Positions 62,030 through 63,973 of a DNA stretch of 64,000 nt are shown here, piece after piece. The stretch covers positions 372,001 to 436,000 of the forward strand of contig NZ_CP051627.1 in the NCBI RefSeq assembly GCF_023208015.1, read 5' to 3'. This DNA comes from Thermobifida alba (GTDB taxonomy: Bacteria; Actinomycetota; Actinomycetes; Streptosporangiales; Streptosporangiaceae). The position numbers and the translations under genes are program-made. Numbering within the stretch: position 1 is the first letter of the stretch; each line of letters starts with the position of its first letter. A model generated the notes under the pieces. The model was given only the letters and a program-made list of their open reading frames with translations. It made no database searches and was not told where the DNA came from.

Positions 62030-63076
62030 TCAGACGCCGAGCGCGGCGGTCTGGGGAACAGCGGTGAGCGTGCGGCCCACCAGCGCGGGAAGCGTGTCCA
62101 CCAGGTGCGCCAACGCGTCCAGGTCGGCCTCGGTCAGCGCCTGCGGCCCGTCGCACAGCGCCGTCTCCGGGGCGGGGTGCACGTCGACGATGATGCCGTC
62201 GGCGCCCACCGCGATCGCCGCGCGCGACAGCGGCAGCACCAGGTCCCGCTTGCCGCCCGAATGCGACGGGTCCACGATCACCGGAAGGTGCGACAGGGAC
62301 TGCGCCACCGGGACCGCGCTGATGTCGAGGGTGTTGCGGGTGGCCTTCTCGAAGGTGCGGATACCGCGCTCGCACAGCACGATGTCCAGGTTGCCGCGCT
62401 GGGCGATGTACTCGGCCGCCATCAGCCACTCCTCGATGGTGGCGCTCATCCCGCGCTTGAGCAGCACCGGCTTGCCCGCCTCCCCCGCGGCCTGCAGCAG
62501 CGCGAAGTTCTGCATGTTGCGGGTGCCGATCTGGAGCATGTCCGCGTAGGAGGCGACCAGCTCCACGTCGGAGGCGTCCACCACCTCGGTCACGACGGGC
62601 AGCCCCGTCTCGTCGCGCACGTCCGACAGGATCTTCAGCCCCGCCTCGCCCAGACCCTGGAACGCGTAGGGGGAGGTGCGCGGCTTGTAGGCGCCGCCGC
62701 GCAGCAGCGAGGCGCCCGCGCGCCTGGCCATCAGCGCCGCCTCCAGGGTCTGCTCGGGGGTCTCCACCGCGCACGGTCCGGCGATCACCGTCATGTGGTC
62801 GCCGCCGATCGGCACGCCCGCCACGCGCACCACCGACCGCTCCGCGGTGTTCTCCCGGCTGACCAGTTTGTAGGGGGCGGAGATGTGCAGCACGTCGGCC
62901 ACCCCCGGCAGGGCGCGCAGGTCCAGGGTCGCGAACCGCTGGACATCGCCCACGAGCCCGATGATGGTTCGGCTCACGCCCCGGGTCACGTAGGCCTCGC
63001 CGCCGGCCGAGGCGACGAGGTCCACGATCGAGGCGATGTTGTCGGAAGAGGCGTCGGGCGCCATCACGATGACCAT
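62030..63076 (-). CDS. aroF: 3-deoxy-7-phosphoheptulonate (DAHP) synthase, type I-beta
   Basis: 348 aa first enzyme of the shikimate pathway. An N-terminal ferredoxin-like (ACT-like) regulatory domain (1-~75; VIVMAPDASSDNIASIVDLV) precedes the barrel, with MTVIAGPCAVET (metal Cys), GGAYKPRTSPYAFQGLG, LLKRGMSATIEEW and VDPSHSGGKRD. AAGGA precedes the ATG. Upstream lies a leader peptide and an attenuator that would tie expression to aromatic amino acid supply. Most streptomycetes rely on the type II enzyme, so this may be the regulated isoenzyme. Confidence 0.95.
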   Translation of the reverse strand: MVIVMAPDASSDNIASIVDLVASAGGEAYVTRGVSRTIIGLVGDVQRFATLDLRALPGVADVLHISAPYKLVSRENTAERSVVRVAGVPIGGDHMTVIAGPCAVETPEQTLEAALMARRAGASLLRGGAYKPRTSPYAFQGLGEAGLKILSDVRDETGLPVVTEVVDASDVELVASYADMLQIGTRNMQNFALLQAAGEAGKPVLLKRGMSATIEEWLMAAEYIAQRGNLDIVLCERGIRTFEKATRNTLDISAVPVAQSLSHLPVIVDPSHSGGKRDLVLPLSRAAIAVGADGIIVDVHPAPETALCDGPQALTEADLDALAHLVDTLPALVGRTLTAVPQTAALGV

Positions 63077-63145
63077 TGAACGCTGTCCTTAACGGGTGCT
63101 GTGGAGAGTGGGTGTCGGGGCAGCGGCGGGACGGGAAAGACAAAA

Positions 63146-63173
63146 AAGCCCCGGACCATGCGGCCCGGGGCTT
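63146..63173 (-). terminator. Attenuator terminator in the DAHP synthase leader
   Basis: On the minus strand AAGCCCCGGGCC (63162-63173) pairs with GGTCCGGGGCTT (63146-63157) over a GCAT loop with one G-U, followed by a run of six T (63142-63147 on this strand as A). It is the only hairpin in the window with a full U tract. It lies 66 bp before the aroF ATG and 15 bp after the leader peptide stop. Confidence 0.85.
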
Positions 63174-63187
63174 CGAAGTCGTCCGTG

Positions 63188-63259
63188 TCAGCGCAGCGCT
63201 CGTCGGGCGACCGATCCCGTGGGCCGGTAGCCATAAAAGCGCCAGAAGTTCCGCTGCAT
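63188..63259 (-). CDS. Aromatic-rich leader peptide of the DAHP synthase gene
   Basis: 23 aa: MQRNFWRFYGYRPTGSVARR plus ALR. Five of residues 5-11 are aromatic (Phe, Trp, Phe, Tyr, Tyr), as expected of a peptide that senses charged tRNAs for all three aromatic amino acids. The ATG has no Shine-Dalgarno and lies 8 bp after a TATAGT -10, so the mRNA probably starts at this AUG (leaderless). A GGCCCACGGG segment just after the aromatic codons (63216-63225) can pair with the left arm of the terminator, acting as antiterminator when ribosomes stall. Confidence 0.8.
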   Translation of the reverse strand: MQRNFWRFYGYRPTGSVARRALR

Positions 63260-63266
63260 GGCAGTG

Positions 63267-63298
63267 ACTATAGCGCACGGGGGAGGCGCCGTTGCCAA
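63267..63298 (-). promoter_or_regulatory. Promoter of the DAHP synthase leader transcript
   Basis: -10 TATAGT (63267-63272) is close to consensus. A -35 candidate TTGGCA (63293-63298) lies at a long 20-bp spacing. Transcription would begin at or within a base of the leader peptide ATG (63259). Confidence 0.6.
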
Positions 63299-63370
63299 CG
63301 AGGCGGAGTCGGGGCGTAACCGGGAACCTGGAAAGATGGCCTTGGATCGAGCATCGGGAGAAGAGAACGA

Positions 63371-63973
63371 TTGTCTGAGCGACGGCTGCCACCAGGGCAG
63401 TATGTGCCGAGCGGATGGCCCGCGGTGCACTACGGCCCGGTGCCGCGGTTCCGCCCGCACCGCTGGGACCTGCAGGTCTACGGCGCCACGGCGGACGCGA
63501 AGCGGTACCGGTGGGACTGGGCCGGGTTCCGGGAGCTGCCGTGTGTCGACGTGGTCGCCGACTTCCACTGTGTGACCAGGTTCACGATCACCGACGTCCG
63601 GTGGCGGGGGGTGGCCGCGTCCACCCTGGCGGAGCTCGCCCCGCCGGCTGAGGACGCGACCCACGTCATGGTCTGGGCCGAGTACGGCTACAGCGCCAAT
63701 CTGCGCATGGACGACTTCCTCCGCCCCGACGTACTGCTGGCCACGCACCGTGACGGCGAACCGCTGGCCCCCCAGCACGGCCATCCGGTGCGTCTGGTCG
63801 TGCCGCACCTGTACGGCTGGAAGAGCGTGAAGTGGGTGCGCGCCATCGAGTACATGACCGCCGACCGGCGCGGGTTCTGGGAGGAGCGCGGCTACCACAA
63901 CCGCGCCGACCCGTGGTCCGAGCAGCGCTACTCCTACCAGGAGGATCCCGGGGACGGGCCCCCGCTGGACTGA
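63371..63973 (+). CDS. Molybdopterin-dependent (sulfite oxidase-like) oxidoreductase
   Basis: 200 aa, a single Mo-cofactor domain without dimerisation or heme domains. The Mo-ligand Cys is in DFHCVTRFTITDVRWRGV, with later WAEYGYSANLRMDDF, HGHPVRLVVPHLYGWKSVKWV and FWEERGYHNRADPW, typical of this family. No Tat signal, so cytosolic, unlike MsrP/YedY. Substrate unknown. The start is a TTG with GGGAGAAGAG upstream; homologues begin near here. It is divergent from the DAHP synthase leader. The stop codon lies inside the terminator hairpin. Confidence 0.88.
   Translation: MSERRLPPGQYVPSGWPAVHYGPVPRFRPHRWDLQVYGATADAKRYRWDWAGFRELPCVDVVADFHCVTRFTITDVRWRGVAASTLAELAPPAEDATHVMVWAEYGYSANLRMDDFLRPDVLLATHRDGEPLAPQHGHPVRLVVPHLYGWKSVKWVRAIEYMTADRRGFWEERGYHNRADPWSEQRYSYQEDPGDGPPLD

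Follow-up and report, generated by a model that had tools for sequence, protein, structure and literature searches.

A probable transcription attenuator with aromatic control codons upstream of DAHP synthase in Thermobifida alba and its putative homologue upstream of chorismate mutase

The window, a 64,000-nucleotide stretch of Thermobifida alba DNA, very probably carries a ribosome-mediated transcription attenuator of DAHP synthase, the first enzyme of aromatic amino acid synthesis, which would sense charged tRNA-Phe, tRNA-Trp and, more weakly, tRNA-Tyr. A short open reading frame with clustered codons for the pathway products is followed by an intrinsic terminator ahead of the structural gene, and an antiterminator that excludes the terminator is kept by compensatory changes, with the limits of covariation given below. 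The control codons are placed, as far as a thermodynamic model goes, such that a stalled ribosome would free this antiterminator. The ORF, the terminator, their conservation, the strand-specific and compensatory pairing, the codon bias and the position of the modelled limit were all computed. A preliminary description of this DNA had proposed a DAHP synthase attenuator that carries Phe, Trp and Tyr codons and in which one leader senses all three aromatics; the attenuator is supported here, and equal sensing of the three is not supported by the stall model.

The leader ORF is located on the minus strand and comprises 23 codons and a TGA stop, with the run Phe5-Trp6-Arg7-Phe8-Tyr9-Gly10-Tyr11 at the residues described earlier. 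A terminator scan returned one hairpin with a 13-pair stem (shuffle mean of 0.2), close to the 12 bp first proposed, and the six-U tail of that proposal includes residues counted here in the stem. The fold from the ATG to the U-tail has an energy of −57.9 kcal/mol (z = −3.69), equalled by none of 200 shuffles, and is composed of S1, formed from the first and last codons, a hairpin H and the terminator. The ORF downstream of the leader passes the cut-offs of two DAHP synthase models, in agreement with its earlier assignment. An Rfam scan of positions 62900–63500 of the window gave five matches at E values up to 1, all to sRNA families and below the gathering score, and five relative loci gave none, with T-boxes and riboswitches among the families scanned. 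On the plus strand, a divergent ORF (63371–63973) resembles the MsrP/sulfite dehydrogenase catalytic subunit families, below their cut-offs.

Table 1. Coordinates of the leader, its RNA elements and the following gene (positions in the window)
Feature	Coordinates	Strand	Basis or remark
-10 box TATAGT, 7 nt before start codon	63267–63272	−	sequence; boxes of relatives
Leader peptide ORF, MQRNFWRFYGYRPTGSVARRALR	63188–63259	−	probably translated from mRNA 5′ end
S1 5′ strand, last start-codon base and codon 2 into codon 3	63252–63257	−	fold, permutation test
Control region: Phe5 TTC, Trp6 TGG, Arg7 CGC, Phe8 TTT, Tyr9 TAT	63233–63247	−	stall model, codon bias
H (anti-antiterminator) 5′ arm	63225–63232	−	fold, permutation test, alignment counts
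Tyr11 codon TAC, past modelled antitermination limit	63227–63229	−	model 0.01; TAC in 36/36 Nocardiopsis-type leaders
Antiterminator strand a (CGGCCC)	63221–63226	−	pairs with 63166–63161
H (anti-antiterminator) 3′ arm	63206–63213	−	fold, permutation test, alignment counts
Antiterminator strand b (GTCGCCCG)	63204–63211	−	pairs with 63185–63178, one mismatch
S1 3′ strand, near ORF end	63193–63198	−	fold, permutation test
Antiterminator strand b′ (CGGACGAC), just after leader stop codon	63178–63185	−	pairs with b
Intrinsic terminator hairpin, T-rich tail after	63145–63174	−	terminator scan
Antiterminator strand a′ (GGGCCG), terminator 5′ arm and first loop base	63161–63166	−	pairs with a
AAGGA, Shine-Dalgarno-like site of DAHP synthase	63086–63090	−	sequence
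Type I-beta DAHP synthase, 348 aa, regulated gene	62030–63076	−	TIGR01361 and PRK08673, above cut-off

Upstream regions were taken from 109 DAHP synthase homologues (80 + 31 loci, minus L005, a weak match at E = 6e-4, and L083, whose match starts within the gene) and searched for an ORF that has three or more aromatics within eight residues and is preceded at 5–10 nt by a TANNNT box. Such a leader was found before 72 of the 109, three of these being exact repeats, and was absent by this criterion from the remaining 37, mostly more distant homologues; L073, a plausible leader, was excluded for lack of the box. The peptides differ by group, with motifs FWRFYGYRP in the Nocardiopsis type, YFFWFDQPG in Actinomadura, FWYGDGP in the Streptosporangium type and YFFGHLPG in Nocardioides. 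A model built on 57 of these leaders (R1) matches 189 of 200 genomes of the window's family and 66 of 68 genera (E ≤ 1e-6), a count in which some matched genomes had supplied training sequences. Six of the 11 genomes without a match (G160, G202, G332, G333, G337 and G338) also have no DAHP synthase match at 1e-50, and a DAHP synthase gene without a recognised leader is found in five of the 200 (G031, G062, G331, G334 and G335). In the sole genome that has a leader and lacks a DAHP synthase match (G227), the gene is truncated at a contig end.

The collection analysed below holds 108 distinct leaders, identical ones being counted once, with 68 from a first and 40 from a later set; 72 precede DAHP synthase and 36 chorismate mutase. 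The leader ORF, whose conservation in relatives the preliminary description had named as decisive, recurs across all of these, and terminator hairpins are also present in the relatives' leaders. L192 was dropped for a poor terminator call, L178, L190 and L193–L199 failed the leader filter in the later set, and nine loci taken as other matches (L163, L200 and L202–L208) were skipped there together with L164, which repeats L043. The terminator arms of L036 and L043 were assigned manually, L015, in which the script found no perfect terminator stem, was omitted from the pairing, stall and codon tests, and the doubtful L068 was kept in the 108 and left out of one retest. A class-level tally of R1 matches (191 of 394 genomes) was rejected as a leader count because many of the listed matches cover the terminator part only or are threonine-codon leaders. 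The latter (e.g. MKRAAMTTTPESVPAR), found at L163, L200 and L202–L207, start 6–7 nt after a -10 box, and the genes after them, named by eye, resemble threonyl-tRNA synthetase; the thrL leader of Streptomyces lividans is already known (PMC8079986, accessible part).

The start of the window leader is probably leaderless. As described earlier, the ATG has no Shine-Dalgarno sequence and closely follows TATAGT, with 7 nt between them. A [CT]ANNNT box lies 6 or 7 nt before the start codon in 103 of the 108 leaders (7 nt in 65, 6 nt in 38, 8 nt in four and 10 nt in one) against a background of 1.3% per upstream position, a regularity that is partly by construction, since a box was required when the leaders were chosen. 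The start codon is ATG in 89 and GTG in 19, and an SD-like AGGA or GGAG occurs in only one of the 108, which together with the -10 spacing supports the leaderless start proposed in the preliminary description. Attenuation on a leadered mRNA, with an upstream transcription start and another initiation signal, would accord with the leader frame, which in the window is open far upstream of the ATG; that stretch, however, lies opposite the gene-like divergent ORF on the other strand, and with the single SD-like sequence and the box counts (read with the selection in mind) also against it, we regard this arrangement as unlikely. By eye, many leaders share TGCGCTA immediately 5′ of the -10 box and extending into it (63267–63278 and relatives), and the -35 region appears poorly conserved.

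The preliminary description had paired GGCCCACGGG (63225–63216) with CCCCGGGCC in the terminator (63170–63162). Both lie at these positions on the minus strand, and covariation and a permutation test agree that the region after the aromatic codons pairs with the terminator arm. Only part of the first strand belongs to the antiterminator, whose full extent is helix a:a′ plus a second helix, b:b′ (Table 1). In an alignment of 57 leaders (A1), the 13 pairs of a and b were compared with shuffled and slid versions: 86.3% of cells were paired (shuffle mean of 78.3), 54 cells were altered on both sides (shuffle mean of 18.6), and the covariation score was 0.239 against 0.127 shuffled and at most 0.051 slid, the last comparison favouring the true register because that register was derived from the window's own sequence. 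Pairs with double changes (7 versus 5.7) and further pair types (13 versus 13.7) were not above shuffles, such that covariation, suggested earlier as a check, exceeds shuffles in three of five measures and fails in two. Compensatory examples in a are C-G replaced by G-C and G-C by A-U, and in b C-G by U-A. In H, paired cells amount to 87.0%, compared with at most 50.1% in slid versions; its covariation score (0.119) and 13 doubly changed cells were equalled by slid versions (0.116 and 15), and it fails the same two shuffle measures. S1 is supported by the fold and the permutation test.

The permutation test is free of any alignment and compares the pairing of cognate strands with that of strands swapped between groups (50000 permutations, floor of 2e-5), whereby additive effects of base composition cancel. 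With 25 groups, defined by us without a tree and many holding one leader, p was 0.0018 for a, 2e-5 for b, 4e-5 for H and 2e-5 for S1; the cognates were better in just 16, 19, 15 and 17 of the 25 groups, respectively, so several groups do not fit. Merging the Nocardioides-type groups and removing L068 (21 groups) gave 0.0024, 2e-5, 2e-5 and 6e-5 in the same order. Without the later leaders (19 groups), the test gave 0.003 for a, 5e-5 for b and 0.001 for H, with S1 at 0.018 for the ORF end alone, 0.040 for the stretch after the stop and 0.0006 for both. Six control region pairs gave p values of 0.15–0.82. Collectively, the four RNA helices show strand-specific complementarity across 108 distinct leaders, and the antiterminator covaries as well.

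In the stall model, ribosome coverage ends 12 nt beyond the first nucleotide of the A-site codon, and the RNA is made to 3 nt past the terminator 5′ arm, short of the 3′ arm. In the window leader, modelled pairing of the terminator 5′ arm with the ORF is 0.86 for codons 1–8 (through Phe8), then falls to 0.64 at Tyr9, 0.44 at Gly10 and 0.01 at Tyr11, and climbs again to 0.50 at Pro13 and 0.56 at Gly15. The earlier proposal that stalling at Phe, Trp or Tyr codons frees the antiterminator thus holds in the model at Phe5, Trp6 and Phe8, in part at Tyr9, and fails at Tyr11; this suggests that Phe and Trp would be sensed well and Tyr in part. Across 19 groups (offset 13), aromatic residues make up 56–79% at the five codons that precede the limit, then 27% and 12% at the following two, and none beyond except for 5% at +6; offsets of 11 and 15 give a like picture. 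In single printed leaders, the limit varies in position relative to the cluster end, from three codons ahead of it to seven beyond. Modelled antitermination thus ends near the end of the aromatic cluster. Without a ribosome, pairing is at least 0.2 lower than with a stalled one in 10 of 19 groups (rounded means, one being exactly 0.20). It is hardly lower in the 36 Nocardiopsis-type leaders (0.73 versus 0.78), so kinetic trapping would be required for an OFF state when the RNA is untranslated. Antitermination would moreover depend on timing, since the model ends before the terminator 3′ arm and S1, H and the terminator all form in the fold of the whole leader.

We infer the transcription start, translation, stalling and amino-acid response of the following scheme. 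Transcription would begin at or beside the leader ATG, with a ribosome loading on the mRNA 5′ end while RNA polymerase moves ahead. When aromatics are ample, the ribosome would pass FWRFY and reach the stop codon, where, by footprint arithmetic, it would cover b′ and part of b and the terminator would form. When they are short, it would stall on Phe5, Trp6 or Phe8, and in part on Tyr9, opening S1 and, at Phe8, also the H 5′ arm; a and b would stay free, and a:a′ and b:b′ would capture the terminator 5′ arm, allowing transcription to continue.

Nascent leader peptides can themselves arrest the ribosome, TnaC being an example, and an aromatic-G-x-x-P pattern that recurs in many leaders, together with the modelled value of 0.50 with the ribosome at Pro13 in the window, is what such an arrest might lead one to expect in place of slow decoding of aromatic codons. 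Both the Gly and the Pro codons of this pattern, however, sit within H and a, and 33 of 36 Nocardiopsis-type leaders share the same 24-nt core, synonymous sites included, so RNA pairing can explain the pattern. Furthermore, of the 32 printed leaders with a Pro codon after the cluster, 25 have a modelled value under 0.3 at the first such codon; the remaining seven, the window's included, reach 0.36–0.72. We consider peptide arrest very unlikely and retain slow decoding of the aromatic codons as the preferred signal.

Codon choice in the cluster departs from that of the downstream genes. In 68 DAHP synthase leaders, cluster Phe is TTT in 87 of 131 cases and cluster Tyr is TAT in 65 of 112, compared with 0 of 345 and 9 of 344 in the first 1020 nt of the DAHP synthase genes that follow (Fisher 1.6e-62 and 4.8e-38, values inflated by shared ancestry). 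The TTT bias is uneven, with 4 of 14 in Actinomadura leaders. All 36 Nocardiopsis-type leaders, that of the window among them, have TTT for Phe8; Tyr9 is TAT in 35 and Phe5 is TTT in 26, and Tyr11, past the limit and also inside H, is invariably TAC. In 33 leaders of the family f18 (below), the final Phe codon is always TTT and the Tyr codon always TAT; in three groups, G or C ends 32% of the F/Y codons in the cluster, compared with 80% of the remaining leader codons. The UUU/UAU bias could reflect slow decoding or a constraint on the RNA. To our knowledge, bacteria have a single tRNA isoacceptor each for Phe and Tyr; if this is true, the bias could not stem from selective charging of isoacceptors, and whether decoding speed or an RNA constraint underlies it becomes testable. 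The theory of such selective charging is treated in the accessible part of PMC1183508.

Together with the conserved ORF and its aromatic cluster and the covarying antiterminator, this codon bias also argues against a short transcript ended by a constitutive terminator, in which the ORF would be incidental and DAHP synthase would have its own promoter after the terminator. The Shine-Dalgarno-like site before the gene (63090–63086) would suit such an arrangement, for which a sigma-70 consensus scan, one that also missed the leader promoter, found no second promoter; we judge it highly improbable, and the attenuator remains the reading adopted.

A putatively homologous leader is found before chorismate mutase. 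The best listed R1 matches outside the window's family, although R1 was trained on DAHP synthase leaders only, were full length and lay in f18, with E values to 2.9e-15. A motif check placed chorismate mutase after the leader in 35 of 36 fetched f18 loci, and in the one missed, L149, the enzyme is visible by eye in the translation. All seven proteins tested (four from f18 and three from f37 and f48) are above the cut-off of NF005894. In f28, f8 and L165, DAHP synthase and not chorismate mutase follows the leader. We take f18 as probably Streptomyces, since the only plasmid records similar to one of its genomes are all Streptomyces (4 of 4). A second model (R2), made from 32 chorismate mutase and three DAHP synthase leaders with the window leader left out, retrieves the window leader at E 1.1e-7. 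Across the phylum (396 genomes, E ≤ 1e-4), R2 matched 14 genomes, of which 11 are f18, one f37, one the window's own and one a terminator-only match, and revealed no further downstream gene. Since the GC-rich terminator is common to these leaders and contributes to all scores, the case for homology lies in the margin over terminator-only matches, which score about 30–40 bits among the matches listed compared with 60–68 bits for the best from f18. From these searches, the leader would be homologous in probable Streptomyces and the two further families f37 and f48.

None of 13 tested genomes with the chorismate mutase leader has a type I-beta DAHP synthase, which is found in three of three genomes chosen for the DAHP synthase leader, as is necessarily so. 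All 16 have a class II DAHP synthase match, above the cut-off in 15, the exception being the window genome, where a divergent class II-like gene (G000:C1:3348335-3349462) falls below the TIGR01358 cut-off. NF005894 gave no match in the window genome. Trp is found in 61 of 72 DAHP synthase leaders versus 3 of 36 chorismate mutase leaders, a difference weakened when counted by group (13 of 22 versus 0 of 3), so a tracking of the downstream gene by the Trp codons is only suggestive. Tentatively, and with rather less than even confidence, these leaders may be read jointly as one Actinomycetota attenuator RNA family moved between unrelated genes, standing before type I-beta DAHP synthase where that enzyme exists and before chorismate mutase, with Trp mostly missing, where it is absent. 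In the same joint reading, the leaderless RNA would be a one-shot sensor, its 5′-terminal start region closed by S1 pairing with the segment around its own stop codon and opened only by a ribosome loading during leader transcription.

The attenuation mechanism itself is the classical one. E. coli trpL and pheL respond to one aromatic amino acid each and have a normal ribosome-binding site. In Corynebacterium glutamicum, aroF (cg1129) encodes a type I-alpha enzyme, its aroR leader was reportedly described as leaderless by Neshat in 2014, and the ilvBNC leader, going by the title of a report by Morbach in 2000, is said to have no ribosome-binding site. Like trpL and pheL, the window leader would relieve attenuation by stalling at codons for a pathway product (PMC11802643, in the part accessible). 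With C. glutamicum aroR-aroF it shares a short ORF with aromatic codons before a DAHP synthase, the motif there being Phe-Tyr-Phe without Trp, as compared from published descriptions only (PMC4046766 and PMC11802643, accessible parts); transcription of that aroF rises on Phe limitation and is indifferent to Tyr availability (PMC11802643, same part). The three-hairpin model of C. glutamicum ilvBNC likewise has an anti-antiterminator, an antiterminator with a strand shortly after the control codons, and a terminator, but concerns Leu and Val codons in another operon and has mutational evidence, whereas the window leader is known from sequence (PMC11857589, accessible part). In S. lividans, also a high-GC actinomycete, seven of eight leader peptides before amino acid genes are described as leaderless, and in the accessible part of that source none of the eight is named for Phe or Tyr or placed before chorismate mutase (PMC8079986). 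A leader without a ribosome-binding site, called unusual in the preliminary description, is therefore mostly known ground, since leaderless leaders and the three-hairpin layout (Streptomyces, Corynebacterium) and a Phe-Tyr-Phe leader for aroF have been described; the features proper to the present family are the change of gene, the S1 closure and the codon bias.

In the open literature, a scope outside which most subscription papers fall, no report of this leader family or of a Streptomyces chorismate mutase attenuator was found. A 2005 survey of Actinobacteria that included Thermobifida fusca reports, in its accessible part, that no conserved regulatory RNA structure was observed upstream of operons for Phe and Tyr (PMC1262725). 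The leader is nearly universal in one large family, and its putative homologue stands before chorismate mutase in probable Streptomyces, a genus put to use for products derived from aromatics. The leader would offer a defined target for relieving control of the aromatic pathway. On a Streptomyces lunaelactis plasmid, a chorismate mutase gene (L226, 763–1065) lies beside a non-ribosomal peptide synthetase.
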